Shown here: piece after piece, positions 2,308 through 32,880 of the stretch
Position numbering within the stretch: the stretch's first letter is position 1
Layout of the letters: the number at the start of each line of letters is the position of its first letter
From: a virus
Direction: 5' to 3' (one strand)
Length of the DNA: 34,053 bases
Virus record (IMG/VR): IMGVR_UViG_3300036045_000043
Location: 1-34,053 of that record
Program-made: the position numbers and the translations under genes
Notes under the pieces: generated by a model
The model's input: the letters and a program-made list of their open reading frames with translations, nothing else
Database searches by the model: none
What the model was told of the DNA's origin: nothing

Positions 2308-4030
2308 TCTTCACTTCCTCCGTAAAACAAGCATATAGAATTCTAGTGTACTCGTCAACACATTTTGGCGCGACTTCGGCAATGATCGAATCGTGAATAG
2401 TGTTAATGATTTCGACCGGCATATCCTTTATCGCGTGCCACACGAGCACTAGCGTTAGACAAATGATTTCCGCCGACGCGAACGACTGGATCGGGTAATT
2501 GAATATGGATGTCGTGTTGTCCACGTAACCGTCGCGACTGATCTTCGTCCCGGGCCAGTAAAACTTTAGCCCCCAGGGCGTCACGAGCTGGCCCGTCTTT
2601 AGTACCTCGTGTGTCCACGCCGTTTGCTCGGCGTACATCGTCGGGTACTTGTCACGAAACGCTTTGTAATAAGCCTTTTCCTTGTTAGTTCCGGAACGTC
2701 CTCCGTATAGCGGTTTGAACGTGTGTGCCTTGGCGTTCTGGCGGGTTACCCCAAGCACTTGCGCTGTCAGCGCGTGTACGTCGAATCCTTCCGTCGTCAG
2801 GTCTCGCAGCGCGTCCTTGTCCTTGGTCAAGTCCGTCGCTACACGGAACTCAAGTTGTGGCGCGTCGGCTTCAACTATCAGCCGGTCGCCCCGGCTGGCC
2901 TTGAACAGCTTCTTAAACGCTCTCTCGAAATTCTGGAACTGGAACCCGCCTTTACGGCCTGAACTTGATAGCCGGTGGGTAGCGGTTCGCGTTTGGTGAA
3001 ATTGAGCAAAGACATTCGTCTCCCCGCGACCTAGAGTCGCTTGCATCTTCTTGAGATTGTCGAACGGCTTCTTTAGCTTCGCTACTTCCAGCGCTGCTTT
3101 CTTGAATTCCTTCTGTTCTGGGGTAACCGCCTTCAACTCGGAGATAATTCCCTTCGCTGTCGGCAAAGCTCCAGCACCAGTTAGTACCGGCTTTCCGGAG
3201 TAATTCGTAGGCGGCTCGAATTTCAGAGTCCCGTACAGCATTTCGCGCATTTGCTTCGCAGAGCGCGGATTGATACCCCCGGCCAGCTTGTGCAGCTGGT
3301 CCGTAGCTTGAGAAAATTCCACTGCCGCTTTCGCGTACTCCGGGAGGACGCGTTCCGGGTCCGGTGTCATTCCCCGCGATTCGATCTCCGCCAGGCACGG
3401 CGTCACCAGGTTTCTTGAATAGGTAACGGGCAGCAGTCCACCAGCCGATAAACGGCCCCGTTGCTCTAGGAAAATTTTTTCGCATAGGTCTACGTCTCTT
3501 TGGCAATATTCAATAAGAAGGTTCGCAGGTATTTCTGACGGGCAAACGCCCGATCCTATAAGTGCTGATACAACAGATTCCTTCCCCCCATAGCCATATG
3601 ACGTTGCGACGGACTCAAGGCTAAGGGGTCGCTTGACGTTCCCGTTAAGGACGTATTGTCCGATTTGCGTGCAGAATCCGAAGATTGTTCGCAGGTCAAT
3701 TCCGCATCGGGCGAGCCACTGGTACTCAAACTTAAGGTTGTGAGCAACCACGAATTTAGCGCTTTGTATGTCGCTAACAAGTCGGCCTTGCTCAAACTCC
3801 GATCCGAAGCAATGATGATCTCTAGGCCCGAGCTTGGCCCCTGGATGCTCATTGCCGAGACGCCAACAGGCAAGAACGATAGAATTTCGTCCCTCCAAAG
3901 CACTCCCGGAATCGAGACTTGAAGTCTCAAAATCGAGGCACACGTAGCTTCCGGATAGGTAGACATCAGGCTGCGGCTCCGTAACAAATTTCGGCAAACA
4001 CAGCTTTTGTGCGTTCTTTTCCAAGTTCAT
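2228..4030 (-). CDS. family A DNA polymerase with 3'-5' exonuclease domain
   Basis: 600 residues. The N-terminal proofreading domain shows Exo I 'CLDFETSS' (D33, E35), Exo II around 'AHNLKFEYQWL' (96-106) and Exo III 'YCQRDVDLCE' (Y175, D179). The polymerase domain shows motif A 'EADAPQLEFRV' (D389), motif B with R430, K434, F438 and Y442 ('RQNAKAHTFKPLYGG', where most relatives have FG rather than FK), and motif C 'NTIHDSIIAEV' (H546, D547). It is shorter than T7 gp5 (704) but complete. It is the replicative polymerase, working with the helicase, primase and SSB of this operon. The ATG, preceded by GAGGCGG, lies 65 nt inside the ligase gene, and its 3' end hosts the start of the next gene. 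Confidence 0.95.
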   Translation of the reverse strand: MNLEKNAQKLCLPKFVTEPQPDVYLSGSYVCLDFETSSLDSGSALEGRNSIVLACWRLGNEHPGAKLGPRDHHCFGSEFEQGRLVSDIQSAKFVVAHNLKFEYQWLARCGIDLRTIFGFCTQIGQYVLNGNVKRPLSLESVATSYGYGGKESVVSALIGSGVCPSEIPANLLIEYCQRDVDLCEKIFLEQRGRLSAGGLLPVTYSRNLVTPCLAEIESRGMTPDPERVLPEYAKAAVEFSQATDQLHKLAGGINPRSAKQMREMLYGTLKFEPPTNYSGKPVLTGAGALPTAKGIISELKAVTPEQKEFKKAALEVAKLKKPFDNLKKMQATLGRGETNVFAQFHQTRTATHRLSSSGRKGGFQFQNFERAFKKLFKASRGDRLIVEADAPQLEFRVATDLTKDKDALRDLTTEGFDVHALTAQVLGVTRQNAKAHTFKPLYGGRSGTNKEKAYYKAFRDKYPTMYAEQTAWTHEVLKTGQLVTPWGLKFYWPGTKISRDGYVDNTTSIFNYPIQSFASAEIICLTLVLVWHAIKDMPVEIINTIHDSIIAEVAPKCVDEYTRILYACFTEEVKNVIERLYGYRIRVPLGVEIKSGTHWG

Positions 4031-4616
4031 CCGCCTCGAATGTTTTCTTAAGCATTCCGCCGCTGGCCGTGTGATAGATCACTATGCCTTCCGGATTCAT
4101 GTAGCCCGGACTAGCCGTTGATCCGTACTTCTGCAAATCCTGCAACGTTTGCTCTACTTGACACTCACTGAACTTCCCGGCGTACAGCGTAGGCACAAAG
4201 TTCACGCACTCCGGCAGCGAAGCGGGCTTCGCGCCAATGAACAGCGAGAAGTTACGTTTCGTTTGATCGTACCCTCGCTGAATACCGCGTCCCCACCATT
4301 CACCCCGGAACCATCCCGGCCCCATCTGCGCCAGCTCTCCCGCGTTCTCCATGACCCACTTCGCGAACCCGAAGTTGTCGTTCACTTCGGTAAGCCATCT
4401 ATTCCGCGATCCGGCCAGGATTGCTAGCGGCGTATCGCCGTCTCCGAATCCAGGCAGAATGTCCAACACTTCGGCGCTCTCTTTCGCAACAGAAAGCTTC
4501 GATTCGGAATCAAGCGCAACAAGGGCGATGGTTCCGTTAGTGCCGTCGATCTTCTCAGATATGACCATGTTGCTAGTCCACCTGGGTATTTTAGAGAAGG
4601 GCTTGAATTCTACCAT
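3966..4616 (-). CDS. RNA-ligase-family nucleotidyltransferase
   Basis: 216 residues with the ordered motifs of covalent nucleotidyltransferases (RNA ligase family): motif I 'EKIDGTNG' with the predicted adenylylated lysine K22, 'AGSRNRW' (68-74), 'FRGEWWG' (103-109), 'PEGIVIY' (175-181) and 'LKKTF' (189-193) as motif V. The protein is short and has no added OB-fold or zinc domain, so it is a minimal ligase core like the small RNA-ligase-type enzymes of other phages. It may seal nicks in RNA or DNA; the substrate cannot be read from sequence. It sits directly before, and overlaps, the DNA polymerase gene, which favours a role in replication or nick repair. AGGAC lies about 10 nt before the ATG. 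Confidence 0.82.
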   Translation of the reverse strand: MVEFKPFSKIPRWTSNMVISEKIDGTNGTIALVALDSESKLSVAKESAEVLDILPGFGDGDTPLAILAGSRNRWLTEVNDNFGFAKWVMENAGELAQMGPGWFRGEWWGRGIQRGYDQTKRNFSLFIGAKPASLPECVNFVPTLYAGKFSECQVEQTLQDLQKYGSTASPGYMNPEGIVIYHTASGGMLKKTFEADELGKERTKAVFAEICYGAAA

Positions 4617-9471: not shown

Positions 9472-9507
9472 ATTCATGGTGCTGGCCTATAGTGGAATTG
9501 CACCTAG

Positions 9508-9547
9508 CATTACGAATGATGTGCTCTACCAGCTGAGCTAAAGCGGC
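9508..9547 (-). other. attP core: 5' half of a tRNA-Thr(CGU) gene
   Basis: On the minus strand these 40 nt read as the first half of a tRNA: acceptor strand GCCGCTT, D-arm GCTC..GAGC with loop AGCTGGTA, then the 5' anticodon stem CATCA and loop TTCGTAA with anticodon CGU (Thr). The 3' anticodon strand starts TG as it should and then departs from complementarity, and no T-arm or acceptor 3' strand follows. It is therefore not a tRNA gene but a copied half gene, the usual identity block between a phage and its tRNA integration site. The core overlaps the last codons and stop of the integrase gene, and the stop TAA is part of the anticodon loop. Confidence 0.85.
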
Positions 9548-10595
9548 TAGTGTCAACAGAATCAACAGGTTGCGACGTTTCCTTAGATTCGGACTTAACG
9601 AGTGTGGGTGAAAGTGTGTTGGCCTTGTTTGCAACATAAACGGCCAAATCGCCGGCGGCAAGGTGAGTGTACTTGTCCACGAGCTGCAAGCTTTTCCATC
9701 CGCCAAGCTCCTTAAGAGCTTTTATAGGCGTACCGGCCAGCACGTGCATAGTGGCCCAATGGTGGCGTAGATCGTGGAACCTGAATCCCACCGCGCCCGT
9801 CTCGGCGCACGCCTTGGCCCAGGACTTCTTGATAGTCCCTACCGGCGCACGCTGATTGTGGTCGGTGAACACGTAGGTGATGTGGCTCCCCACGCACTGC
9901 TCCAAAATGGCCTTAGCTCGCGGAGAGAGCGGCACAACTATGGGCCGTTTACCCTTGGCGGCGGAAGCCGGTATAACCGCCAGGTTATTGGCCAAGTCAA
10001 CCATGCTCCATTTAAGTTTGGTGACGTTAGCTCGGCGCAAACCCGTCTCTACTGCGAACGTGGCGATGCGGCGCGCGTGTTCAGGTAGCGCGGCCATCAC
10101 GCGATCAAGCGTGGCAGGGTCTATAGTGACAGGCTCGAACGCCTCTCCAGTATAGTTAGGCACTCTCCACGGACGGGTTAACCATCCCCACTCGAACGCC
10201 TTGTTTCCCAAGGCTCGAATGACTGCCATATGTCGGCGCACGGTAGTATGCCGATGTTGGCTAATCAAGTCCGTCCCATAGTCGGCAATAGTCGCGTTGC
10301 TGACGCTATCCAGGCGCACGCCTTTGCCTGCGCGAGAAAGGAACGCGTCCAATATAAGGCGATCTACCCACAAGCTTCTCTTTTCTCGCTTCTCTAGCAT
10401 CCAACGAGACGCGGCGTCATCTAACGTACGGTCGGACGTACCTAGTACCATTCCGTTGTACAAGTCCGCGCGAAGCTTCTCTTCGTAACGCTCGGCCTGC
10501 TTCTTGTCAGGCGTTCCGGTAGAGCGGCGAATCTCTTTACCCCTAAAAGTAAATTCGGTTTGCCAGTTGTCGGAGCCTTTACGCTTGTAGAGCAT
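9510..10595 (-). CDS. int: tyrosine recombinase integrase
   Basis: 361 residues. The N-terminal ~60 look like an arm-binding domain ('NWQTEFTFRGKEIRRSTG'), followed by a core-binding SAM-like domain (60-150) and the catalytic domain. Catalytic residues are R187 ('ETGLRRANV'), K214 or K216 ('SAAKGKRP'), H274-R277 ('FRFHDLRHHW'), W300 ('ELGGWKS', replacing the usual His) and the nucleophile Y309 ('VDKYTHLA'). The last residues from R351 ('RFSSAGRAHHS') are encoded by the tRNA-like attP core, so recombination leaves the coding sequence intact. It overlaps the preceding small gene by 17 nt. It should catalyse site-specific integration into a tRNA-Thr gene. Confidence 0.95.
   Translation of the reverse strand: MLYKRKGSDNWQTEFTFRGKEIRRSTGTPDKKQAERYEEKLRADLYNGMVLGTSDRTLDDAASRWMLEKREKRSLWVDRLILDAFLSRAGKGVRLDSVSNATIADYGTDLISQHRHTTVRRHMAVIRALGNKAFEWGWLTRPWRVPNYTGEAFEPVTIDPATLDRVMAALPEHARRIATFAVETGLRRANVTKLKWSMVDLANNLAVIPASAAKGKRPIVVPLSPRAKAILEQCVGSHITYVFTDHNQRAPVGTIKKSWAKACAETGAVGFRFHDLRHHWATMHVLAGTPIKALKELGGWKSLQLVDKYTHLAAGDLAVYVANKANTLSPTLVKSESKETSQPVDSVDTSRFSSAGRAHHS
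9558..9578. repeat. right putative integrase arm sites
   Basis: AGAATCAACA (9558-9567) is the exact reverse complement of the left TGTTGATTCT, and GTTGCGACGT (9569-9578) is a direct copy of the left site. They lie 10-30 bp from the core, inside the integrase coding sequence. Confidence 0.55.
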
Positions 10596-11304: not shown

Positions 11305-11368
11305 AGTCGATGTGTCTCCGTATATCTAGGTATAACCCTAATGAACGTGCGTCTTTGTATCTAGTCCC

Positions 11369-11449
11369 ATAGTCATAGTCAAGTCCTAAATAGATGTTGA
11401 CTATAATCATAGAATGTGATTACACTGCTCTCCCGTTTAACAATAGTCA
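11369..11449. promoter_or_regulatory. cluster of ATAGTCA repeats (putative operators)
   Basis: ATAGTCA occurs at 11369-11375, 11375-11381 and 11443-11449, and its complement TGACTAT at 11398-11404. A variant ATAGTCG is at 11303-11309 and another TGACTAT at 11475-11481 over the HTH start codon. Two copies flank and one overlaps the rightward promoter at 11397-11426. Spaced copies between a regulator-like gene and the integrase operon suggest repressor or activator binding, possibly by the HTH protein. Confidence 0.4.
11397..11426 (+). promoter_or_regulatory. sigma70-type promoter for the HTH gene
   Basis: TTGACT (11397-11402) and TACACT (11421-11426) are separated by 18 bp, and a well-placed gene start follows at 11474. 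The -35 box overlaps a TGACTAT repeat. Confidence 0.5.
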
Positions 11450-11473
11450 GAGAATCGAAAGGGAGCGAGGACG

Positions 11474-11797
11474 ATGACTATTAAGAGCAAGTACAACACC
11501 GGACCTAAGAAGGCTACCCCGTAGCAAATAAACCAGGCTGTCAAGCGTTATCTTGAGGGCGAGCAAGTAGTCGCGCTCGCCAAGGAATACAAGATCAGCG
11601 TGCCGGGGTTTTACCTTTGGATAAAGCGAGCGCGCGAAGCAGCTGCCGCGCAGGCTGCGCTTGTCGACATATCTCCGAAGCAGCAAGAAAAGGATCAAGC
11701 AATCTCCTTGCGGTTACGCGTGGACAAGTTGCAGCAAGAGAACGATCAACTAAAGAAGAAACTCTTTGAGCTGATGCTTAAGCATGGCGAAATCTAA
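11474..11797 (+). pseudogene. HTH regulator gene interrupted by an in-frame amber codon
   Basis: The only rightward gene in the left half. A strong ribosome-binding site (GGGAGCGAGG) leads to ATG 11474. The frame reads MTIKSKYNTGPKKATP, then TAG (11522-11524), then 'QINQAVKRYLEGEQVVALAK', 'EYKISVPGFYLWIKRA' and a C-terminal leucine-zipper-like helix ('LQQENDQLKKKLFELMLKHG'). The post-TAG part is a transposase-type helix-turn-helix followed by a dimerisation helix, giving a 107-codon protein if the TAG is read through. No start codon lies between the TAG and the HTH helices. Relatives I recall have a Glu before 'QI', so GAG to TAG is a simple explanation. Other genes here end in TAG, so the codon is not globally reassigned. 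Confidence 0.7.
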
Positions 11798-12724: not shown

Positions 12725-13228
12725 CTATACGTTTTGGTTAAACACATAGCCGCCATTAGTCATGTAGTAATCGCTAGTGAACAGATCGCGGGCGAAAGCC
12801 TCGTAGTCGAAGTATCGCGCTACGGTATCAGGCACTCCCAAAAAGAATCCCAGGTCGTCGGCCAGGCACTCGGCGTAAGCTTTCTTGCTTTCCCATTTGC
12901 CGCGATACGCATCGCGGAAACCCTCGATAGTGGCGTAGGCAAGGCCGATATAATCTGCCCATTCGATGAATGCCTCGCAGTCCTCGACTTCGCACAGTAT
13001 CTCTGTGAGCTGCGCGATTTCTTTAATCGAGGTGTACTCGCCGACTAGATCGCCGAAGCCTTCGGTATCGTGAATCGCGAATTCTTCCGCGCCCTCTTCG
13101 GACGACGCGGCCAACATGGCCGCGATCTCTTCGTAAATCTCGTCCGCGCCCTTACCTTCGCAATCGATCCATGAGCCGTGCAACGTGCCGGCGTTATAGC
13201 TGGCGAGACAAGCAACGTAGATTCTCAT
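12725..13228 (-). CDS. ardA: ArdA-type antirestriction protein
   Basis: 167 residues, strongly acidic, opening 'RIYVACLASYNAGTLHGSWID', the recognisable N-terminus of ArdA proteins. Further features are 'IHDTEGFGDLVGEY', 'EAFIEWADYIG', 'FRDAYRGKWESKKAYAE' and 'YFDYEAFARDLF', in the order expected across the three ArdA domains. ArdA mimics bent B-form DNA and blocks type I restriction-modification enzymes, so it would protect incoming phage DNA. The length matches the family (about 165-170). It sits close to the start of the leftward early operon, where early expression is useful. The Shine-Dalgarno is weak. Confidence 0.9.
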   Translation of the reverse strand: MRIYVACLASYNAGTLHGSWIDCEGKGADEIYEEIAAMLAASSEEGAEEFAIHDTEGFGDLVGEYTSIKEIAQLTEILCEVEDCEAFIEWADYIGLAYATIEGFRDAYRGKWESKKAYAECLADDLGFFLGVPDTVARYFDYEAFARDLFTSDYYMTNGGYVFNQNV

Positions 13229-18444: not shown

Positions 18445-19361
18445 TGACGCTGGCGATTAATCTTCCGCCGCTGCAATCTGCGGATGTGCAGATTTATACC
18501 GGCGTATCCACGGTAACGAACACGCAATGGCGTACGTGGACTAAACCATACGGCCGCTCGATGCTCAACATTCTTTGCATCGGCGGAGGCGGCGGTGGTG
18601 GGGGCGGATTTACCGCTGCGGCAGGAAATGCTCGTGGCGGAGGTGGAGGCGGCGGCTCTAGCGGACAAACGCGCGTGCTAGTGCCGCTACACTTGTTGCC
18701 AGACGTGCTCTACATCCAAGTCGGCGTCGGCGGCGCGGGCGTTGGTTCCGGTGGCGGCACGGCGCCGTCCGGCGTGCTCTCGTACGTCGCCATTGCGCCG
18801 AACACGACCGCCACGAACGTGCTTGCCGTGTCGGGCAACGCCGCCGCAGCGGGCGGCGGTACTGGCACGGGGGCGGCAGTAGGCGCGGCGGGCGTAGCCG
18901 GAACGATTGCGACGATTGCGAACATGCCGCTCGCCGGGCTCGGGCACCACTGGTTTATCGCCGGCCAAATCGGCGCCGCGGGCGGAGCCGTGGCTGGCGC
19001 GATAGGCGGTCCTGCTGTGTTTCCGACGACGAGCGTGCTCACGATGGGCGGAGCGGGCGGAGCGGGCACTACGTCCGCAGACTTCGCGGGCGGAATCATT
19101 ACGGCCATTACTTCCAGCTTTTTGTCAGAAGCGCGCCCGCAAGGCGCGGCGGCAGGATCAAATCCCGGCTCAAGCGGATTTTTGCTTACGCGGCCGTTTT
19201 TTAGCTATTGCGGACTTGGCGGCAGCGCGTCTAACTCCGGCGTAGGCGGTGCTGGTGGGTACGGCGGACCGGGCTCCGGCGGCGGCGGAGGTGGCGGCGG
19301 AACGACGGGCGGCGTGGGCGGGACCGGCGGAGCCGGAATTGTTGTGATGACGGCTTGGTAG
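18444..19361 (+). CDS. glycine-rich tail adhesin
   Basis: 305 residues from ATG 18444. The N-terminal 50 residues ('LPPLQSADVQIYTGVSTV', 'WRTWTKPYGRSMLNILCIGG') are followed by long Gly-rich tracts separated by hydrophobic strands ('LLPDVLYIQVGVGGAG', 'FFSYCGLGGSASNSG') and end 'GGTGGAGIVVMTAW'. That ending and tracts such as 'GGGGGGGGTTGGVGGTGGAG' are typical of glycine-rich fibre-tip proteins whose polyglycine-II helices display receptor-binding loops (as in phage S16 gp38). It is likely the receptor-binding tip for the fibre gene two genes upstream. The internal Met starts before 18444 belong to the previous gene's frame. Confidence 0.78.
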   Translation: MTLAINLPPLQSADVQIYTGVSTVTNTQWRTWTKPYGRSMLNILCIGGGGGGGGGFTAAAGNARGGGGGGGSSGQTRVLVPLHLLPDVLYIQVGVGGAGVGSGGGTAPSGVLSYVAIAPNTTATNVLAVSGNAAAAGGGTGTGAAVGAAGVAGTIATIANMPLAGLGHHWFIAGQIGAAGGAVAGAIGGPAVFPTTSVLTMGGAGGAGTTSADFAGGIITAITSSFLSEARPQGAAAGSNPGSSGFLLTRPFFSYCGLGGSASNSGVGGAGGYGGPGSGGGGGGGGTTGGVGGTGGAGIVVMTAW

Positions 19362-19366
19362 CCCAC

Positions 19367-19759
19367 ATGAACTACGTAACTAAACCTGCCACGAAAATGC
19401 CCGCCCGCCTTTGGCAAAAAGGCCAGTCGGGAAACCCGCTAGGACGCCCGAAGGGCTCCAAGAACAAGATCACGCTCATGAAGCTCCAGCTCGAAGGCGA
19501 GCTGCGGACGCAGATCAAGCGCGATATGCAAGACATCGTAGCCAAGGCCATCACTATGGCCAAGGAAGGCGATGCGCAAATGATTAAGTTGCTTGTGGAC
19601 AAATGTATTTCGCCTGCACGAGCAGATGAATCAGAAGGCGAAGGTGTAAAAGGGGTCAATGTTTTTGTGGGGCGCATGCCCGATACGCCGGAGCCGCGAG
19701 GCAACGGAATCACAATCGACAATGGCTATGACAATAGCGTTCAAGTAGAGCAAGAGTAA
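19367..19759 (+). CDS. terminase small subunit-like protein (DUF5681 type)
   Basis: 130 residues. The basic opening 'WQKGQSGNPLGRPKGSKNK' (about 18-36) is the signature of DUF5681-type DNA-binding proteins, many of which occupy the small-terminase position. A helical region ('DMQDIVAKAITMAKEGDAQM', 'LLVDKCISPARADES') and an acidic tail follow. It should bind the packaging site and load DNA on TerL, encoded three genes later. ATG 19367 is used; the TTG at 19355 lies inside the previous gene and lacks support. The Shine-Dalgarno is weak. Confidence 0.7.
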   Translation: MNYVTKPATKMPARLWQKGQSGNPLGRPKGSKNKITLMKLQLEGELRTQIKRDMQDIVAKAITMAKEGDAQMIKLLVDKCISPARADESEGEGVKGVNVFVGRMPDTPEPRGNGITIDNGYDNSVQVEQE

Positions 19760-19767
19760 CTAGGTAA

Positions 19768-19920
19768 ATGAAAAACACTTACAAGTGTCCGGAAGGCCAG
19801 AAGCCTGGTGGACAGGTCAAAAGCACTCCGGGAGCCAAGCTCTCGGGCGCTAAACTTCTTAAGACGGGCTCCAACCTGATGAAGGGGAACTCTGAAAATC
19901 GCGGCAAAGGGATGAAGTAA
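19768..19920 (+). CDS. small basic hypothetical protein
   Basis: 50 residues beginning MKNTYKCPEGQKPGGQVKST, Lys/Gly/Ser rich, ending 'NSENRGKGMK'. It begins 8 nt after the terS-like stop with AGG upstream and stops just before the next GTG. High lysine with no hydrophobic core suggests a disordered nucleic-acid-binding peptide. Not recognised. Confidence 0.6.
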   Translation: MKNTYKCPEGQKPGGQVKSTPGAKLSGAKLLKTGSNLMKGNSENRGKGMK

Positions 19921-19921
19921 C

Positions 19922-20242
19922 GTGCCGACTCGTAATCGCAGACAGTTTCCGGACGTGTTCGTGGAAATCTTCACGGGCGCAGCCACCACGGACGTTACTT
20001 CGATTGCCGCAGGCGGTCGCGCCACGGTTGCGTTGACGATTCCGGGCGTCGCTCTCGGTGACGTGTTTATCGGGGCATCTACGTCTATCGACGTGGGCAA
20101 CTTGATTCTCTCCGGCAAGGTGACGGCGGCGGATACCGCGCAGATTGTCCTTGAGAACAACACTGCTGGCGCGATTGACCCGGCCAGCTGTACGTACATT
20201 GGCGTGTTCGGTCGTTTGAATCTCCCGCTGCTCGCAACCTGA
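19922..20242 (+). CDS. beta-rich small virion protein
   Basis: 106 residues from GTG 19922. Strand-rich sequence 'GRATVALTIPGVALGDVFIG', 'NLILSGKVTAADTAQIVLEN', 'CTYIGVFGRLNLPLLAT' matches a common phage structural fold ('...vpGa.lGD.v...s...dl.gl...g.Vsaadtv.v...N.tg...'). It is probably a decoration or fibre-head protein. The stop abuts the TTG start of terL. Confidence 0.62.
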   Translation: MPTRNRRQFPDVFVEIFTGAATTDVTSIAAGGRATVALTIPGVALGDVFIGASTSIDVGNLILSGKVTAADTAQIVLENNTAGAIDPASCTYIGVFGRLNLPLLAT

Positions 20243-21562
20243 TTGACGGGCACAACCGATCTCAATTTTGCGCTACACCAAGCGCAGCTTGAGATATTCG
20301 ACCACCAGGCTAGGTTTAAGGTTGTCGCGGCGGGCCGCCGCTTCGGCAAATCTTATCTAGCTGCGGTAACTCTTCTCATCGAGGGACTTAAGAACGAAGC
20401 CGCTAACGGCGCGGACTTGTCCCTCGAAGAAGTCTATTACATCGCGCCTACGTTCGAGCAAGGCAAGAAAATCCTGTGGCCTGTCCTTAAGGCTATGGGG
20501 AAATTCGCGAACGAAGGCGGGGTGATCGAATCGGCGTACGAGAACACAGCGGTTCTCACGCTGATTAACGGGCGGCGCGTGTCGATTAAAGGCGCGGACC
20601 GCCCGGACTCGTTGCGAGGCGTAGGCTTGTCCTACGTCGTGCTAGACGAGTACGCGTTCATGAAGCCGGACGTGTGGGAGCTGATCGTACAGCCAGCGCT
20701 GTCCCGCGCCCAGGGCGGGGCGTTGTTTATCGGCACGCCTGACGGCAAGAATCACTTCTATGACCTTTTCGTAAAAGGCCAGAAGAAGCCCAAAGGGTAC
20801 GAAGATTGGCACTCGTTTCAGTTCGAGTCGCTAAAGAACCCGGTACTTGCCAAGGAAGAAATAGCCCGCGCCGTACAGCGCATGTCCGTCGGTCAAGCGC
20901 GACAGGAGTACGGGGCCAGCTTTAACTCGGGCGGCGGGCTGTTCCTTCGCGAGGAATGGTGGAAGTTCAAGGATGAGCCGAAGGAAGGCGATTACTACAT
21001 CGCCGTAGACCCTGCCGGGTTCTCCAACGCGGGGTCTTTGAAGAAGGGCCAGCTCAAGATCAAAGACGAAACGGCTATCGCCGTCGTCAAGGTCAACACG
21101 GACGGTTGGTGGGTAGCTGACATCATCAGCGGCCAATGGGACGTTCGGGAAACTGCGCTGCGTATCGTGAAAGCGTACGCGGACTATCGCCCGATAAAAT
21201 TGGGCATTGAGAAAGGCGCACTAGGCAACGCTATAGCCCCGTACCTAGAGGACGAAATGAAGCGGCTTAATCGCTACTTCATGGTGTACGACCTCACGCA
21301 CGGCGGAAAGCAGAAGGAAGATCGCATTCGTTGGGCGCTACAAGGCCGGCTGGAAAAAGGCAGATTGCACTTGGCTAACGAGGAACTTGGGGACTTGTGG
21401 CAGCGCAAGCTGATCGAGCAAGCAAATGACTTCCCCTCCCCGCTTGCGCACGACGACTTGTTGGACGCGCTAGCTTACATTGACCAGCTGGCCTCCGTCG
21501 TTTACTACAGCGAAGGCGTCATTGACACCTATCAAACTTATGATCTCGTGGCCGGGTTCTAA
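20243..21562 (+). CDS. terL: terminase large subunit
   Basis: 439 residues. ATPase motifs: Walker A 'AAGRRFGKSYL' (K36), Walker B 'YVVLDEYAFM' (D135, E136) and coupling motif 'GTPDGKN' (164-170). Nuclease acids: D256 ('IAVDPAG'), E323 ('LGIEKGALG') and D404/D405 ('AHDDLLDAL'). All elements of the packaging motor and the RNase H-fold nuclease are present. It cuts and pumps DNA through the portal encoded next. The start is TTG directly after the previous stop with no Shine-Dalgarno, so translation is likely coupled; no ATG or GTG alternative lies before the Walker A motif. Confidence 0.95.
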   Translation: MTGTTDLNFALHQAQLEIFDHQARFKVVAAGRRFGKSYLAAVTLLIEGLKNEAANGADLSLEEVYYIAPTFEQGKKILWPVLKAMGKFANEGGVIESAYENTAVLTLINGRRVSIKGADRPDSLRGVGLSYVVLDEYAFMKPDVWELIVQPALSRAQGGALFIGTPDGKNHFYDLFVKGQKKPKGYEDWHSFQFESLKNPVLAKEEIARAVQRMSVGQARQEYGASFNSGGGLFLREEWWKFKDEPKEGDYYIAVDPAGFSNAGSLKKGQLKIKDETAIAVVKVNTDGWWVADIISGQWDVRETALRIVKAYADYRPIKLGIEKGALGNAIAPYLEDEMKRLNRYFMVYDLTHGGKQKEDRIRWALQGRLEKGRLHLANEELGDLWQRKLIEQANDFPSPLAHDDLLDALAYIDQLASVVYYSEGVIDTYQTYDLVAGF

Positions 21563-21567
21563 TCTAC

Positions 21568-23472
21568 ATGACTGACGTTCTCGCAGACATCGCACAAGAT
21601 ACTGGCGCAGCGCCTAGCGACGAGCTGGCCTCTTGGGTCATGTCCAAGGTAGAGCGTTGGCGCACGCATCGCGATTCCACGTACGAAGCGCAATGGAACA
21701 AGTATTATTCCATTTGGAAAGGCGAATGGACTGCGGAACTCGCCTCGCGTAAGTCGGAACGCTCGCGCCTCATTGCTCCAGCCACGCAGCAAGCAGTTGA
21801 CCAGACTGTAGCGGAAATGGTCGAAGCGACCTTCGGTCGCGGCAACTGGTTCGATATTTCCGACGACGCTACGCCAGAAGAACAGCAAGCGGCTGATTCT
21901 GTGCGTACCGCACTTCTTGAGGACTTTGACAAAGAGCGGGTCCAGCAGAACATCATTCAGTCGTTTTTCAACGGCGCGATCTTTGGTACAGGAATTGCCA
22001 AGCGCGGAGCTAGCGACGCGGGCCGAGTGACGTGGGAAGCCGTGTCCCCGTTCAATTTCGTCATTGACACGGCCGCCACGACAATTGACGAGGCCCTGGG
22101 GTGCGCGCACGAGACTGTGCGCCCCACGCACGAGATTACCGACAAGCAGAAGTCCGGCGAGTATTACCCCGGAGCTGTAGGCACCGTAGCGGGCTTTGGT
22201 TCGATTAACGCGCTTCGCGGCGCTAACGAGGAATCACTAGAAGTCGCACCAGAAGATGGCGTGTACGTGACGGAGTATCACGGCAAAATACCCAGGCGCC
22301 TGTTGACTCCCCCTCTTGACTTGCCTGACACCGGCATCCTGGAAGAAGGCGCGGACACAGGAACTTCGGATGAGCCGGAAGATTACGTAGAGGCCGTCGT
22401 CACCATAGGCAACGGCGCTACGCTACTCAAGGCCGTAGAATCTATTGATCGCGGCTTCGTCGCGTATCAGCACTACACATGCCCGAATCGCTTCTGGGGC
22501 ATCGGCTGCGCCGAGAAGGCGTCTAATTCGCAGGCAGGTCTTGATGCAGAGCTGCGCGCCCGCATCGACACGTTGGCGCTAATCACGTACCCGATGATGG
22601 GCGCAGACGCGACGCGCCTCCCCAAGAACCTTAATTTGGCGGTTGCGCCAGGTAAAGTGTTCATGACCAACGGCCGCCCATCGGAGATTATCGAGGCTAT
22701 CAGGCTTGGCCAGCTCGACCCCGTGTCGTTTCAGCAGTCTGCCGATTTTGAGCGCATGGTCCAGTCCGCCACAGGCGCAAACGACCCGGCTACGCCGGTT
22801 AACGTGAATCGCCGCAACGAGACTAGCTCAGGAGTCTCGATGCAAACCGGCTCGTTTATCAAACGAGCCAAGCTGACGATGCACAACGTAGACACGGATT
22901 TCCTTGACCCGCTTGTACGTAAGTCAATTTCGCTTGGCCGGGAGTTGAATCCGGACAGGTACGCCATCGACCCGGACTTCGTGGTCAACAGTACCATGTC
23001 GATCATGGCTCGCGAATTCGAGCAAATGCAGATGACCAATCTGTTGGCCATCATTCCGCAGGAGTCTGCGGCGTTCCCTGTCGTTCTCAAGGGAATTGTA
23101 GAGAACTACAGCGGCCCGTCCAAGGATGAAATTCTTGCGGCCATAGACGCCATGAGTAAGCCGGACCCCAAGCAGCAAGCTATGCAAGAGCAAATGCAAA
23201 TGCTCACTATGGCCGAAGCCCAAAAGAAGGTGGAAAAGCTCGCGGCGGAGATTCAGGAAATCGTATCTCGTGCCGGATTGAACGCGACCAAGGCTAAGAC
23301 GGAAATCGTTAAGGCGCAGCACGAGGGCCAGCAGATAGACATTCAGGCCGCGCAGGTTGTCGTGTCCGCCAAGCAGGCCGACGTGGCCCGCAGGCAGGTA
23401 GAAGTCCACGCGCAGAAGGTGCAGCAGGACGCGCGGCGTGACGCCGCCAAGCCCAAGAAAGCGGCCGCGTGA
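21568..23472 (+). CDS. portal protein (head-tail connector)
   Basis: 634 residues, the size of podovirus portals. It opens with a helical N-terminus ('WVMSKVERWRTHRDSTYEAQ'), then 'SRLIAPATQQAVDQTVAEM', 'WEAVSPFNFVIDTAAT' and 'GFVAYQHYTCPNRFWGIGCA', and ends in a long charged helix ('TMAEAQKKVEKLAAEIQEIV' and a Gln/Ala-rich tail) as in the barrel region of large portals. Placed between terL and scaffold as expected. It forms the dodecameric ring for packaging and ejection. The tail overlaps the next gene's GTG (GTGA). Confidence 0.92.
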   Translation: MTDVLADIAQDTGAAPSDELASWVMSKVERWRTHRDSTYEAQWNKYYSIWKGEWTAELASRKSERSRLIAPATQQAVDQTVAEMVEATFGRGNWFDISDDATPEEQQAADSVRTALLEDFDKERVQQNIIQSFFNGAIFGTGIAKRGASDAGRVTWEAVSPFNFVIDTAATTIDEALGCAHETVRPTHEITDKQKSGEYYPGAVGTVAGFGSINALRGANEESLEVAPEDGVYVTEYHGKIPRRLLTPPLDLPDTGILEEGADTGTSDEPEDYVEAVVTIGNGATLLKAVESIDRGFVAYQHYTCPNRFWGIGCAEKASNSQAGLDAELRARIDTLALITYPMMGADATRLPKNLNLAVAPGKVFMTNGRPSEIIEAIRLGQLDPVSFQQSADFERMVQSATGANDPATPVNVNRRNETSSGVSMQTGSFIKRAKLTMHNVDTDFLDPLVRKSISLGRELNPDRYAIDPDFVVNSTMSIMAREFEQMQMTNLLAIIPQESAAFPVVLKGIVENYSGPSKDEILAAIDAMSKPDPKQQAMQEQMQMLTMAEAQKKVEKLAAEIQEIVSRAGLNATKAKTEIVKAQHEGQQIDIQAAQVVVSAKQADVARRQVEVHAQKVQQDARRDAAKPKKAAA

Positions 23473-23717
23473 CTCCGGAACAGCAGGAGTATTTTGAAGA
23501 ACTCCAGTTCATGTTTGCCAGCAAAGGCTGGAAACATTTCGTCGGAGACTTCGCTGACTTTCACAAAGCCCTAAAAGATTCCGCGCTCGATCTATCGAAC
23601 GCCGAATCATTCTGGCGAGCCAAGGGACGCAATGATGCGTTCAACCAAGTGCTATCTTACGAACAGTTGATCCGGGACGGCTATAAAGCCATCCAGGAAA
23701 ACGAAACAGATGTTTAG
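23469..23717 (+). CDS. small hypothetical protein between portal and scaffold
   Basis: 82 residues from GTG 23469, translationally coupled to portal (GTGA). Helical, with 'PEQQEYFEELQFMFASKGWK' and 'ESFWRAKGRNDAFNQVLSYE'. Small proteins with this 'lF...gW......D......a....e.lW..kG......il' pattern are common between portal and scaffold in podoviruses; function unknown. Confidence 0.72.
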   Translation: MTPEQQEYFEELQFMFASKGWKHFVGDFADFHKALKDSALDLSNAESFWRAKGRNDAFNQVLSYEQLIRDGYKAIQENETDV

Positions 23718-23952
23718 ATTTTTTGATTTCGAGTGCGCGGCATGTGGCCACGTGTTCGAGGAAATGATTGATGATGATCGCCGCGAGCAGCCGTGCAATG
23801 AGTGCAACGGACCAGCAAAGCGGCAAGCAAGCGCACCCCGCCTCGATTGGCGGCGGATGGGGACCGATCCCGGCTTCCCGACCGCGTACGAACGATGGGG
23901 CAACGCGCAGACAGAGCGAAACAAACAGGCGAGCGAGCGGGCGGCTCTCTAA
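23710..23952 (+). CDS. FmdB-like zinc ribbon protein
   Basis: 80 residues. 'RFFDFECAACGHVFEEMIDD' followed by 'PCNECNGPAKRQASAP' gives C9xxC12 and C29xxC32, the FmdB/CxxC regulatory-type zinc ribbon. The rest is polar ('FPTAYERWGNAQTERNKQAS'). Such ribbons appear often as small phage virion-region genes; regulation or assembly is guessed, not shown. It overlaps the previous gene by 8 nt. Confidence 0.78.
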   Translation: MFRFFDFECAACGHVFEEMIDDDRREQPCNECNGPAKRQASAPRLDWRRMGTDPGFPTAYERWGNAQTERNKQASERAAL

Positions 23953-24019
23953 TCCTGTCTCCATAAATCCGTCCGTTACTTAGAAGCCGTTTCCAAGCGG
24001 CCAAGGAAAGCAATTAATT

Positions 24020-24835
24020 ATGTTGGAAAATCCGTCATCTACGGAGACTCCCGATATTGATTTGGAGTTGGCAGAAGTCACCGGCCAGTCTGAAAAGGCT
24101 GTAACCCAAGAGACTAACGACACGCCCAAGGTTCCCGACAAGTACGCCGGGAAAACCCTTGACGACGTGATCGCGATGCACCAGAACGCCGAGCGCAAAA
24201 TTTCGCAGCAAGGTAACGACCTTGCCGAATTGAAGCGTGCAAGTGCAGTTCTGATCCAAAACAAAAAGGATAACGTCGAACAGGTAAAGGAGCGCAAGCC
24301 GGTCACGGTTGACGCGCTTCTGGATAACCCTGATAAGGTTCTAGCAGACACGCTCCAGGCCAGCCCCATCAAGCGGCAGGCAGACGAAGCGGTAGAGCGG
24401 GTCAATCAGCTCGAATCCAAACTGGCGTACGGAGACTTCGCGAGAAGCTACCCGGACTACAGGAAGGACATCAAGAATCCGGAATTCATTGAATGGATCA
24501 ACCGCAACGGTACGCGCCTGGGTCTCGCCAACGCGGCGGACAAAGGGAACGCAACCGCCGCGTTGGCGCTATGGGACATGTGGGCCGAGTACAGTGAACT
24601 TGTCGGCGGAAACGCAGACAAGGGCAAGGCTCGCGGAGCGGACGCAACCAAGCGGGCCGCGACCGTGAAAGCCGCTCCGCAGGAGCAGCGAGCGAAGCCT
24701 ACATATTCACGAGCCAAGCTCGATGCCTTGAGGTATCGAGCCATGGACGGTGATCCCGTGGCGCAAGCCAAACTCAATGATCCGGAATTCAATGCACGAT
24801 TGATCGAAGCCTACGCGGAAAAGCGTGTGAAGTAG
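24020..24835 (+). CDS. capsid scaffolding protein
   Basis: 271 residues, acidic, mostly helical. The block 'VPDKYAGKTLDDVIAMHQNA' followed by 'ERKISQQGNDLAEL' is characteristic of podovirus scaffold proteins. The centre holds 'YPDYRKDIKNPEFIEWIN', and the C-terminus is basic ('EQRAKPTYSRAKLDALRYRA'), which in scaffolds binds the coat protein. It lies directly before the major capsid gene, as expected. It should direct procapsid assembly and leave before maturation. Confidence 0.85.
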   Translation: MLENPSSTETPDIDLELAEVTGQSEKAVTQETNDTPKVPDKYAGKTLDDVIAMHQNAERKISQQGNDLAELKRASAVLIQNKKDNVEQVKERKPVTVDALLDNPDKVLADTLQASPIKRQADEAVERVNQLESKLAYGDFARSYPDYRKDIKNPEFIEWINRNGTRLGLANAADKGNATAALALWDMWAEYSELVGGNADKGKARGADATKRAATVKAAPQEQRAKPTYSRAKLDALRYRAMDGDPVAQAKLNDPEFNARLIEAYAEKRVK

Positions 24836-24872
24836 ACCTTTAAGGGAAAACATAACTAAAGGTTTTCTTTTC
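24836..24872 (+). terminator. weak terminator or attenuator between scaffold and capsid
   Basis: ACCTTTA (24836-24842) pairs with TAAAGGT (24857-24863) across a 14-nt loop and is followed by TTTCTTTTC. The stem is AT-rich, so partial termination at most; it starts right at the scaffold stop and may separate scaffold and capsid messages. Confidence 0.35.
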
Positions 24873-24886
24873 AAAAGGATAGATAA

Positions 24887-24953
24887 ATGCCCCTTGGTAC
24901 AGGTCAAATTACGACTACCACGGCGGGCGCTGGCTTCGTACCAGACGTTTGGT
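24887..24953 (+). CDS. major capsid protein, exon 1
   Basis: ATG 24887 with AAGGATAG upstream encodes MPLGTGQITTTTAGAGFVPDVW plus one base. This is the conserved N-terminus of podovirus coat proteins ('MalGTghvTtTtA..FIPeiW'). The frame closes four codons later (TAA 24962) if not spliced. The exon ends with GTTTGGT, which pairs with the intron's internal guide GCCAAAC (24975-24981), giving the terminal U-G wobble that marks a group I 5' splice site. Joined to exon 2 it makes a 314-residue protein. Confidence 0.88.
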
Positions 24954-25646
24954 TAACCCGTTAAGGGTACTCAGGCCAAACTAAAACTTCGCTATTTGCT
25001 GGAACCTCCTAAAGTCTACTAGACTTCTAATGTAAAACTTAGTAGAATGTTACAATGGACAATCAGCAGGTAACTCCCTTTGAATTGGGATGGCTAGTTG
25101 GAATAATTGACGGAGAGGGCTCTGTCGGGATCAGTAAACGAAACCGGCAAGGCGCAGCAAAGCTAGGCTTCACGCTTAAGCCCCATATCCAGATATCTAA
25201 TTCCGACCTTGAGCTGATAGCTAAAGCTGCCGACATTCTAAAGCGTCTCGGTGTAGCGTTTCATGTGTCCAATCACACGGGCATTGGCAGACGACGAAAT
25301 CATCAGACGATTGTGATCGCCGGACTTAAGCGAGTCAGCAAAGCTTTACCAATATTCGCGCCGCACCTTACTAACAGGAAAGCAATTGCGGCACGCTACG
25401 TCCAAGAGTTCATAAATTCTAGACTTAGCGATTGGCACGCTGCGCCATTCACCTTCCGCCAACTTGAGCTAGTCAACTTGTGCGCGGAAGCCAATCACGT
25501 AGGTACCGGCGAACACAAAGCGCGACTCAACCTCAGAGACTATACGCGAAGCTTGCGTAGCACTAAACTCTCGGTTCGGAGAGTGCCGCAAGAAGATAGA
25601 GTCCAAACCTCGGCTTAACGGCCAGGACGCAGCTACAAAAGAATTG
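24954..25646 (+). ncRNA. group I self-splicing intron in the capsid gene
   Basis: 693 nt. P1: exon GUUUGGU (24947-24953) with GCCAAAC (24975-24981), ending in U-G. P10: exon 2 CUGA (25647-25650) with UCAG (24971-24974), immediately before the P1 strand. The last intron base is G (25646). Core-like sequences are 'GACAATCAGCAGG' (25058-25070, P7 region), 'AGAGACTATACG' (25535-25546) and 'AAGATAGAGTCC' (25593-25604), plus a P9-like hairpin ACTCTC/GAGAGT (25567-25584). Splicing restores the conserved coat sequence 'FVPDVWSDDVAARYKKN'. Subgroup not determined. Confidence 0.88.
25055..25618 (+). CDS. LAGLIDADG homing endonuclease (intron-encoded)
   Basis: 187 residues with one LAGLIDADG motif, 'LGWLVGIIDGEGSVGISK' (11-28), acidic residues D19 and E21 in the expected places, followed by beta-strand and helix segments ('KPHIQISNSDLELIAKAADI', 'HLTNRKAIAARYVQEF'). 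One motif implies a homodimer. It would cut an intronless capsid gene and spread the intron. The ORF begins in the P7-region sequence and its end runs through the 3' core and P9 hairpin, so protein and ribozyme share bases. No Shine-Dalgarno is seen. Confidence 0.9.
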   Translation: MDNQQVTPFELGWLVGIIDGEGSVGISKRNRQGAAKLGFTLKPHIQISNSDLELIAKAADILKRLGVAFHVSNHTGIGRRRNHQTIVIAGLKRVSKALPIFAPHLTNRKAIAARYVQEFINSRLSDWHAAPFTFRQLELVNLCAEANHVGTGEHKARLNLRDYTRSLRSTKLSVRRVPQEDRVQTSA

Positions 25647-26524
25647 CTGACGACGTAGCGGCCCGCTATAAGAAGAATACGGTTCTCGCGAACCTCGTCA
25701 CGAATTGGGACCACAGTTCCAAGCCCGGCGACGTGGTTCACGTGCCGTCCCCGACGCGTTCCACCGCTACGAACATTTACGGTTCGCAGGGCGGTTCGCT
25801 GACGTTCACGGCTCCGACCGAGAACGAGTTCACGATCACGATCAATCAGCATTGGGTTACCCCGAAGCAGATTCCGGATATTGTCGAGAAGCAGGCGTTG
25901 CCGAGCTATCGCCGGTTCATTACGGATGACCTCGGGTACTCGCTTGCTGTTGCTGTTGACAGCTATCTGTGGACGACTGCCCGCTTCCTCGCGGGCGCGA
26001 CTTCGGACGCAGGTGCGGTTATTGGCGGCGACGGCACCACACTGTGGTCCGCGTCCGGCAACGGTAACGGTACTGCGCTGTCGGATCAGGGTCTCCGCCG
26101 ATTGATTCAGTCGTTGGACGACAACGATGTTCCGGGTAGCGAGCGATTTCTCGTGATCCCGCCCGTCGAGAAGAATCGTCTCCTGGGTAACGCGCGCTTT
26201 ACGGAGCAGGCGTTCACCGGCGAGGCCGGTTCCTCAAACAGCATTCGCACGGGCATTGTCGGCGCGGTTTACGGTATCCCCGTTTACGTGTCGAGCAACA
26301 GCCCGAGCGTTGTGCAGGGCGCGAACACGTACAGGCTCGTGATGCTGGCGACGAAGGATTCCATGATCCTCGTGAACCAGATCAAGCCGCGCGTGCAGAG
26401 TCAGTACAAGCTTGAGTTCCTTTCGGACTGCTTGGTCGCTGACACGGCGTTCGGTGCGGGCGTTGTGCGTACGGAAAACACGGTCGCCCTCGACCGTGGC
26501 CGTATCGCATTTGTTCCGGCCTAA
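25647..26524 (+). CDS. major capsid protein, exon 2
   Basis: From the splice junction (TGG T|CT GAC GAC) the frame continues 'DDVAARYKKNTVLANLVTNW', 'KPGDVVHVPSPTRSTATNIY', 'ENEFTITINQHWVTPKQIPD', 'GIVGAVYGIPVYVSSNSPSV', 'PRVQSQYKLEFLSDCLVADT' and ends 'DRGRIAFVPA'. This is the HK97-fold coat protein of podoviruses: N-arm, E-loop and A-domain features in order. Spliced length is 314 residues, within the usual 310-350. Starts inside exon 2 such as GTG 25733 would delete the N-terminal arm and are not credible. Confidence 0.9.
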
Positions 26525-26532
26525 TGCGGAAC

Positions 26533-26625
26533 AAATCTAGCGAGCTGAAAAGCTCGCATCGTCCCGGCGTAAGGCTGAACTAGATTTAGGGTAGCTAAAT
26601 CCGGCGCATCCCCTCGGGTGCGCCG
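26533..26625 (+). promoter_or_regulatory. set of overlapping hairpins after the capsid gene
   Basis: GCGAGCT-GAAA-AGCTCGC (26540-26557, GNRA loop), GATTTAG/CTAAATC (26583-26601) and CGGCGCA(t)CCC-CTC-GGG-TGCGCCG (26602-26625, followed by TCTTAG). AAATCTAG (26533-26540) can also pair with CTAGATTT (26580-26587), which excludes the second hairpin. The last hairpin is the most terminator-like. No gene lies in this 126-nt gap. Confidence 0.55.
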
Positions 26626-26650
26626 TCTTAGACACCTTGAAGGAAAACAC

Positions 26651-27607
26651 TTGTCAGTAGAACGTCGCTATCCGCTCATTAAGCACAGCCATGTGCAAAC
26701 GGATATAACCGACCTCTTTCCTCTACTGGCGAGCGACGGAACTGCAAGCGCTCCGTCGTACTCGTTTCTAAGCGACAGCGATACAGGCGCTTTCCGAGTA
26801 TCTGCAAATGTCTACGGCATGGCCGCAGGCGGAGAAAAGGTTGCAGAGTTCACTACCGGCGCACAACGGTTTTGTTTGTACGCCGGTCCAACGGCCGACC
26901 ATGTGTACCTAGCGCTATTCGCCGACTCCGCCGCGCAAACCACGCGTTCCGCGTACATAGGATATCCAAGCTCAGGCACCAACGACCTCTACATTACTAA
27001 TGAGCAAGGTAACGGAATTATTGCGCTAGTCCCGGCCGGTACAGGGTACACGCTTACCAACAAGCAATTCTTGAATTCAGCCAATTTCCAGTGTGACACG
27101 TACTATGGGTACAGCGACACCAGCAAGTACCTACAAATAAATAGCAGCACGTTCGCCTATGGCGGGTGGCTTTTAAACGGATCGAGAAACTCCTACTCAG
27201 GGATAACGATTAACGCGGGGACGATAAACCCGACGCTCATGTCCAATGGCGAGGCGGCCGGCGTGTTTAACCACGGCGACGGCAGCTGGTCTTTCTACAG
27301 AGCCTCCTCAACTCGCGTTATCTCCAATTACAGGTGGGGTTTCGACGACGGGACAGTATCAGAGCCAGCAATGTCGTTCTACAACGACACTAACACTGGC
27401 CTGTATCGCCGTGGTGCAGATGATCTAGGGATCGTAATCGGCGGTTCGCTAGCAATGTCCATTAACGGCGTGAGCACAACGGGCACTCAGACTGCTACGT
27501 TTTCGGCCACGAACAAGCCTGGGTCAGGCACAGCCGGCCCTATCTCCTGGCTACCCGTCGTGACCTCCGGCGGAACTACCGGCTACATCCCAATCTTCGG
27601 AGCATAA
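26651..27607 (+). CDS. tail fibre protein with two repeated shaft modules
   Basis: 318 residues from TTG 26651, with GAAGGA about 8 nt upstream; a GTG at 26618 lies in the terminator-like hairpin and is rejected. N-terminus 'ERRYPLIKHSHVQTDITDLF' is followed by 'APSYSFLSDSDTGAFRVSAN' (about 34-53) and, near the end, 'EPAMSFYNDTNTGLYRRGAD'; both are copies of a module ('ps..Fs.DtnTGiyr.ga...g...gg') common in trimeric fibre shafts. The C-terminus 'TSGGTTGYIPIFGA' suggests a small trimer cap. Its location between capsid and tail tube genes is unusual. Confidence 0.72.
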   Translation: MSVERRYPLIKHSHVQTDITDLFPLLASDGTASAPSYSFLSDSDTGAFRVSANVYGMAAGGEKVAEFTTGAQRFCLYAGPTADHVYLALFADSAAQTTRSAYIGYPSSGTNDLYITNEQGNGIIALVPAGTGYTLTNKQFLNSANFQCDTYYGYSDTSKYLQINSSTFAYGGWLLNGSRNSYSGITINAGTINPTLMSNGEAAGVFNHGDGSWSFYRASSTRVISNYRWGFDDGTVSEPAMSFYNDTNTGLYRRGADDLGIVIGGSLAMSINGVSTTGTQTATFSATNKPGSGTAGPISWLPVVTSGGTTGYIPIFGA

Positions 27608-27611
27608 CTAC

Positions 27612-27815
27612 TTGGCTAATAGAGACGAAATTTACGGCGAGATTGCGAAAGAGATTCGAGTACGAATCCAAACGTGGAAAGCCGAAAAGAAAGCACTCCA
27701 AGCTGCCGCAGCCCGTATTGACGAGTTGAACGACATGATCGACGAGGCGCAGATTGAATTGGATGCGTTGAAGCTGCGTAAGCCCGAGTTGACGCAGGAT
27801 CCGGTAGGCCCATGA
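27612..27815 (+). CDS. small coiled-coil hypothetical protein
   Basis: 67 residues from TTG 27612. Nearly all helical: 'YGEIAKEIRVRIQTWKAEKK', 'DELNDMIDEAQIELDALKLR', with a Pro-rich end. A dimeric coiled coil is likely. Its stop overlaps the next ATG (ATGA). Function unknown; possibly a head-completion or chaperone-like helper. The start codon is the least certain part. Confidence 0.55.
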   Translation: MANRDEIYGEIAKEIRVRIQTWKAEKKALQAAAARIDELNDMIDEAQIELDALKLRKPELTQDPVGP

Positions 27816-27979
27816 CGCTAACCAAAGAAGATATTCAGGTCACGCTCGCGTTTCTCGCGCGAGCTGATCTAAAAGGCGCAGAAGCGCCGTCACTGGTACA
27901 TGTCGTGAACCAGTTGAAAGCGTACGCAGATTCCCTAGAGAAGGCCACCAGTGGCGCAGACGAAACTCCAGTTAGTTAA
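27812..27979 (+). CDS. small hypothetical protein before the tail tube gene
   Basis: 55 residues from ATG 27812: 'MTLTKEDIQVTLAFLARADL', 'KGAEAPSLVHVVNQLKAYAD', then a short polar tail. It is coupled to the upstream gene by ATGA and overlaps the next gene by 29 nt. The 'i...l.FL.RvdLkGaEap.l..v...L' pattern is a common short phage protein near tail tubular genes; function unknown. Confidence 0.65.
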   Translation: MTLTKEDIQVTLAFLARADLKGAEAPSLVHVVNQLKAYADSLEKATSGADETPVS

Positions 27980-28664
27980 CAAGGTTCTAGTAAACCTTCG
28001 CGAATCGGTTGTCGGCACGACCTCCGGTTCGTACGCGAGCCTTATATCCGAGTTCGTGAACCAGGCGAAGGAGAAGGTTGAGGACGCGTGGCCGTGGCGC
28101 ACGCTCGCCGTGGACATCACGTTCACCACGATACTAGGCCAGCGATCCTACGATCTCTCGCAGGCGGGCACTACGCCAGTTATCACGACTAGCCCCACAC
28201 AGCGATACCTGACCGAGCGCTCCACGCTCGTCTATGACGACGAGACGGGAGAACCGTCCGCGTTCCTGACTACAGTTTCTCCGGGGCCTCTAGTAGAGGC
28301 ACAGTACGAGGCCATGCTTCGTGAGTCCTCGTACGAAGTGCTTGCAGTCCCTAACACTGCCCCTTCCGAGTTTGCGTACACGTTCGTGGGCACAGTACCG
28401 ACTGTCGTGTTCCGCAATCCTCCGGATGGCGCGTACGGCGTCCGGTTCCGGTTCACTGTTCCGCAAGATGAGCTGACGAACGACGCGACCAATTTGCTAG
28501 TCCCGTACCGTCCAGTTGTCTCCTACGCCACGGCGCTTGCTATGGCCGAGCGCGGCGAGGAACTTGGACCGGGCGCCTTGAACTACGGCGCTATCGGCGA
28601 CAGCGAGCTGACGCGGGCCATCACTAACGACCAGAACCGCACGATTCAAGTCCGGGCGGACTAG
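27951..28664 (+). CDS. tail tubular protein A-like (gatekeeper/adaptor)
   Basis: 237 residues from GTG 27951. 'LQLVNKVLVNLRESVVGTT' and 'FVNQAKEKVEDAWPWRTL' match the N-terminal helices of T7 gp11-like proteins, followed by a beta domain ('GVRFRFTVPQDELTNDATNL') and 'YATALAMAERGEELG'. These proteins form the dodecameric ring under the portal. Position after capsid and before the nozzle supports the call. Confidence 0.82.
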   Translation: MAQTKLQLVNKVLVNLRESVVGTTSGSYASLISEFVNQAKEKVEDAWPWRTLAVDITFTTILGQRSYDLSQAGTTPVITTSPTQRYLTERSTLVYDDETGEPSAFLTTVSPGPLVEAQYEAMLRESSYEVLAVPNTAPSEFAYTFVGTVPTVVFRNPPDGAYGVRFRFTVPQDELTNDATNLLVPYRPVVSYATALAMAERGEELGPGALNYGAIGDSELTRAITNDQNRTIQVRAD

Positions 28665-28667
28665 CCC

Positions 28668-30200: not shown

Positions 30201-30203
30201 ACC

Positions 30204-31037: not shown

Positions 31038-31039
31038 CG

Positions 31040-31465: not shown

Positions 31466-31478
31466 AGGAACCTCCATC

Positions 31479-31634
31479 ATGTACGAATCATTCGCGGGCG
31501 CGCTTACGCTTCTCGTTATCTGCGCCGCAATCTACGGCTTCTACAAGTTCACTAAGAAGCGCAAGGACGCCGACGAGACTGAACAGGGTGTCGGCGGAGG
31601 TCCGGGTACTGGCTCTCGCTCGCAGCCTAAATGA
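31479..31634 (+). CDS. small single-TM protein
   Basis: 51 residues from ATG 31479, with AAAGGA upstream. One membrane helix 'FAGALTLLVICAAIYGFYKF', then 'TKKRKDADETEQG' and a Gly/Ser-rich tail. Likely inner-membrane with basic side in the cytoplasm. The position just before the second holin candidate suggests a lysis accessory, but this is inferred only from location. Confidence 0.6.
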   Translation: MYESFAGALTLLVICAAIYGFYKFTKKRKDADETEQGVGGGPGTGSRSQPK

Positions 31635-31660
31635 AGGGCTAATGCTGGAGTCTATTTGAG

Positions 31661-32424: not shown

Positions 32425-32428
32425 CTAT

Positions 32429-32878: not shown

Positions 32879-32880
32879 AC

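Follow-up and report, generated by a model that had tools for sequence, protein, structure and literature searches.

A gene for a small DNA-binding protein in a virus genome record is crossed near its start by an in-frame amber codon, and we asked whether this TAG is a nonsense mutation, an error of the consensus sequence or a sign that the gene is read in some other way. The stretch analysed, here called the window, is the whole virus record of 34,053 bases. The regulator gene (11474..11797, plus strand) encodes a lysine-rich tail, a helix-turn-helix (HTH) of the HTH_7 / HTH_Tnp_1-like type and a C-terminal coiled coil. As originally predicted, the TAG is codon 17 of this gene (11522..11524, plus strand), is in frame with the ATG at 11474 and is followed by CAA and then by an open frame up to the TAA at 11795-11797; it is the sole break in the 107 codons and stands at the start of the predicted first HTH helix. 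The translation of the frame reads MTIKSKYNTGPKKATP, then the TAG, then QINQAVKRYLEGEQ...HGEI.

Analysis of codon usage indicated that both sides of the TAG are coding. Codon log-odds, scored against base composition with the 52 other genes of the window as training set, were +0.40 per codon upstream of the TAG and +0.35 downstream, while the other forward frames of the region gave -0.27 and -0.12 and the opposite strand +0.10 or less. The 16 codons upstream of the TAG (11474..11521, plus strand), mostly a low-confidence N-terminal tail, thus share frame and codon signature with the 90 open codons downstream (11525..11794, plus strand), which encode the HTH helices and the coiled coil. The HTH_7 score was 27.7 bits with the residues preceding the TAG and 22.6 bits without them, a gain of about 5 bits; together with the codon signature on both sides, this gain argues for one gene crossed by a stop rather than two unrelated stretches. 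A Shine-Dalgarno-like AGGGAG/GAGG stretch lies upstream of the ATG at 11474, in agreement with the ribosome-binding site that had been proposed. The promoter claimed with it is represented by one sigma-70-like match, TTGACT-18-TACACT at 11397..11426 (plus strand), which is weak, as 0.6 such matches are expected by chance in shuffled sequences. The description of the gene as the only regulator-like one fits the Pfam scans, in which no second HTH domain was detected among the other small genes scanned. Its 3' neighbour is a 64-codon ORF on the opposite strand with no Pfam match, and an ArdA-type antirestriction protein (12725-13228, minus strand; PF07275, E 3e-39) is encoded a few genes away on the same side.

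The AlphaFold model of the unbroken regulator, built with only three sequences (mean pLDDT 76, the first ~10 residues being of low confidence), has helices at residues 16-27, 32-38, 43-64 and 68-103, and the predicted build is that of a tri-helical HTH followed by a long coiled coil. The protein matched PF01527 (HTH_Tnp_1) with 25.9 bits when X was placed at the stop (cut-off 24.1) and PF02796 with 27.7 bits (cut-off 23.8), and the PF01527 match was found in all three family members scanned. The HTH is therefore of the transposase/resolvase-like class and not Cro/CI-like, and a Foldseek search against the PDB returned generic HTH matches only, none with an E-value <0.001. The complete HTH plus zipper frame of the original prediction was thus recovered, with an HTH match in Pfam, a predicted coiled coil and a frame coding on both sides of the TAG. 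As the TAG falls at the first turn or start of helix 1, termination there would leave 16 residues and the whole DNA-binding domain would be lost.

Regulator homologues were found in three other viral contigs (L009, L008 and L264), each beside a divergent integrase, with 38-43% identity to the window protein. All three are unbroken and none carries a premature TAG, the opposite of a TAG shared by all relatives, which had been named beforehand as the outcome that would speak against the prediction. In a comparison anchored on helix 1 the TAG position is occupied by CAC (His), GAC (Asp) and GAT (Asp), while a MAFFT alignment of the four proteins places the TAG opposite Gln, Gln and Pro, with a one-residue gap; the relatives have sense codons under either alignment. 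A profile constructed from the relatives only scored 78.8 bits for the whole regulator protein and 74.7 bits for the part following the TAG. The 90 codons after the TAG contain no second stop and no frameshift, which suggests a recent lesion. In two of the three relatives, L008 and L264, the homologue has TAG as its own terminator, which indicates that TAG is an ordinary stop within this gene family. L002, the first apparent HTH relative, had only ~30 residues in common with the query and was not used, and a tblastn search with the regulator against annotated phages and plasmids gave no match. The frame hence continues past the stop, is homologous to unbroken genes and carries a stop that is absent from the relatives, as in a nonsense-interrupted gene. 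Since the related viruses are unbroken, a single recent mutation or an error in the sequence is the most likely origin of the TAG, rather than a new mode of gene reading. Among the options raised in the original prediction the point nonsense mutation is best supported, with the TAG absent from the relatives, no downstream decay and TAG serving as an ordinary stop; suppression, read-through and a leader peptide gained no positive support. We regard the TAG as probably a real, recent and isolated amber allele of a lysogeny-module regulator.

If the TAG were due to faulty sequencing or assembly, or to a base from a minority strain that entered the consensus, the phage population would carry an unbroken regulator; we consider this unlikely, although it is the main rival reading. 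A single base difference could suffice, the consensus comes without reads, and the relatives are unbroken. An exact DNA scan of the viral contigs around the TAG gave no match, and hence no second sequence over it. Against an error stands contig L184 (IMGVR_UViG_3300021517_000030), the only close match, which is 100% identical to window positions 19290-33941 over 14,652 bases and is the same phage in another contig; it starts at window position 19290 and thus falls short of the regulator gene. Provided that the two assemblies were made independently, the consensus contains fewer than about 1e-4 errors per base; at that rate the expected number of nonsense errors in the window is well below one, and an accidental nonsense is improbable.

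Expression of the regulator at a low or regulated level, through an amber suppressor of the host or of a co-infecting element or through misreading of the TAG, was judged improbable. Past the TAG the frame stays intact and its codon usage is normal, and an unbroken frame is equally expected of a product made by suppression. The sequence UAG-CAA-AUA is also similar to a stop context that is leaky in eukaryotes; that context is not known to have this effect in bacteria. The CAA itself needs no recoding explanation because L008 also has Gln at that place. Stop usage in the 52 genes of the window was TAA 22, TGA 20 and TAG 10, which bears out the earlier statement that TAG is a normal stop elsewhere, and ARAGORN detected no tRNA genes in the window, a contig that may be incomplete. 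TAG is thus not depleted as a terminator, as it would be under genetic code 15, the window holds no phage suppressor tRNA (CUA), and neither the stop nor its context is conserved across the three relatives, as programmed read-through would require. On these grounds both a change of code and programmed read-through fail, and nothing was found in favour of the suppressor host that had been suggested. Two more in-frame TAG junctions, at 17317 and 28664, abut a downstream gene in their own frame and might also have been sites of read-through; this was rejected, since genes abutting in one frame follow other stops too and the downstream genes have starts of their own. We give very little credence to the amber codon as a regulatory switch in which the lysogeny regulator would be made only in hosts, or at times, with UAG suppression and lysogeny would be tied to the decoding state of the host.

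A leader peptide of 16 residues followed by reinitiation, either at ATA 11528 (a near-complete HTH) or at GTG 11600 (half of the HTH plus the coiled coil), is a very improbable reading. An AAGAAGG stretch is present at 11507-11513, and the product from ATA 11528 would keep 71.8 of the 78.8 bits of the relatives-only profile; ATA, however, initiates very poorly, and 14 bases separate it from this Shine-Dalgarno-like stretch, which is not well placed. Downstream of the TAG the frame has no standard start (ATG, GTG or TTG) before GTG 11600; this GTG is not conserved, and a protein begun there would retain just 35.0 bits. The relatives have no leader stop, and no positive evidence was obtained for the leader peptide of the original prediction.

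The role of the regulator was approached through its genomic context. A tyrosine integrase gene (9510..10595, minus strand) is divergent from the regulator gene and is its partner in the putative lysogeny module. The region between the two genes (11305-11480) contains five TAGTCA, each inside an ATAGTCA; the five ATAGTCA copies, at 11369 (+), 11375 (+), 11398 (-), 11443 (+) and 11475 (-), span 11369..11481. They lie in the divergent promoter region on either side of the weak -35 match, and the last of them overlaps the start codon. Only three other copies occur in the window, and five copies of any hexamer were reached in 1 of 2000 dinucleotide shuffles. This operator-like layout is as expected for the operators of an autoregulated repressor; the operator reading is a conjecture, because the repeats are not common to the relatives, each of which has different short repeats at that place.

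An alignment-based scan with the DNA polymerase recovered 79 viral loci, and a separate capsid scan yielded the third HTH relative; scans that used the integrase or the DNA polymerase as a single protein had given no relatives, probably owing to over-specific peptide patterns. An integrase (PF00589) was present in exactly 2 of 46 viral records with this DNA polymerase, and the HTH gene was found in the same two (L009 and L008), in the same divergent order as in the window; by counting alone, with relatedness and fragments ignored, the odds of this co-occurrence are 1 in 1035. On the 18 kb contig found via the capsid (L264/L265) the divergent integrase is cut off by the end of the contig, so that its N-terminal part is present, with the HTH gene next to it; another capsid-derived fragment (G066) ends in a partial integrase, and this piece carries no HTH gene. 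In L009 a MerR/HTH_17-type excisionase-like gene (3829-4014, plus strand) lies directly 5' of the integrase, and no recognisable counterpart was found in the window.

The regulator gene is therefore linked to and divergent from the integrase and occurs only in integrase-bearing relatives, as expected of a lysogeny repressor. Its link to integration makes the unbroken protein most likely a lysogeny-module regulator, and a repressor role is plausible from the strict co-occurrence with the integrase and the five ATAGTCA copies. That the regulator had already become dispensable, the phage turning virulent and the gene being an early pseudogene, is hardly probable: most polymerase relatives lack both the integrase and the HTH gene, but here the integrase, the attP-like site and the remainder of the gene are intact and a single lesion is seen. 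Suppression, reinitiation and an early pseudogene account jointly for a small part of the probability.

The window is best explained as the genome of a temperate, podovirus-like phage in the free, not integrated, state. A likely attP, the 5' half of a tRNA-Thr(CGT)-like sequence whose identity was assigned by eye from the anticodon loop, overlaps the 3' end of the integrase gene (about 9504-9548, minus strand) and matches DNA of Sinorhizobium and Shinella with 95% identity over 40 bases, which weakly suggests an alphaproteobacterial host. Since the site is interior to the contig and the window holds no intact tRNA, the contig is taken to be phage DNA in the free state, from which a repressor-null mutant would be recoverable; this agrees with the nonsense reading without proving it. 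Annotated phages include no close relative of this one: the closest annotated DNA polymerases, those of StenR_269 and of Zobellviridae-type vibriophages, are only 38-41% identical. An RNA ligase-like gene (3966-4616, minus strand) lies beside the DNA polymerase gene and a GNAT acetyltransferase gene (32357-32878, plus strand) among the late genes. The major capsid gene (24888-26524) appears to be interrupted, with a start (MPLGTGQITTTT...) near 24888 and a continuation upstream of 25733. A LAGLIDADG endonuclease ORF (25055-25618; PF14528, PF00961) lies inside it, and the interruption is probably an intron with a homing endonuclease; the full Rfam group I intron model at 24939-25626 scored 15.9 bits, far below the threshold of 50.

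Under the favoured reading of an isolated amber allele, the divergent partner of the integrase operon would normally encode a small HTH plus coiled-coil DNA-binding regulator, and translation from ATG 11474 would stop after 16 residues, ahead of the first HTH helix. A host lacking a suppressor tRNA would then make no functional regulator beyond what basal misreading allows, and the behaviour would be that of a clear-plaque (repressor-null) mutant if the protein represses through the ATAGTCA copies. The push towards lytic growth that had been predicted thus assumes that the protein is a lysogeny repressor. The sequences show the TAG itself, a coding frame on both sides of it, unbroken homologues, the link to the integrase and the use of TAG as an ordinary stop, whereas it is only inferred that the TAG is biologically real, that the regulator acts as a repressor, that the repeats are its operators and that the phenotype would be lytic. 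The allele would be one more case, of a familiar kind, in which the sequenced form of a temperate phage may be missing its lysogeny regulator. Being ordinary in kind, it is less useful than its by-product, the previously unnamed and undescribed integrase plus HTH-zipper module, which splits putatively temperate from integrase-less members of the Zobellviridae-like polymerase lineage and whose candidate operator sites make the role of the regulator directly testable.

The lambda cI amber is a repressor-null nonsense mutant of a temperate phage. Single nonsense mutations in the repressor gene have been found in immunity-escape mutants of Cluster A mycobacteriophages, and the rep nonsense mutants of Bxb1 and Et2Brutus are likewise repressor-null mutants of temperate phages (PMC6550527). 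The window phage resembles these mutants in that it bears an integrase and has a gene for a DNA-binding regulator cut short by a stop; it differs in that the regulator is only a putative repressor with a transposase/resolvase-like HTH and in that the allele is known from a virus contig and not from a phenotype. The succession of an HTH and a coiled coil is shared with the IS3-family OrfA-like HTH plus zipper proteins (PF01527) and with the resolvase HTH (PF02796), whereas no transposase (DDE) catalytic ORF lies beside the regulator, and its position and divergent integrase partner are those of a phage module. Phages of genetic code 15, e.g. crAss-like phages, read TAG as Gln (PMC9523058) and, like the window, have in-frame TAG inside phage genes, while in the window one gene is affected, TAG is otherwise a stop and no suppressor tRNA is present. 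The window shares a related DNA polymerase, a DnaB-like helicase and an exonuclease with the Zobellviridae and StenR_269-like podoviruses, and it is set apart from them by the integrase and the HTH gene, which among the sampled polymerase relatives are present only in L008 and L009.
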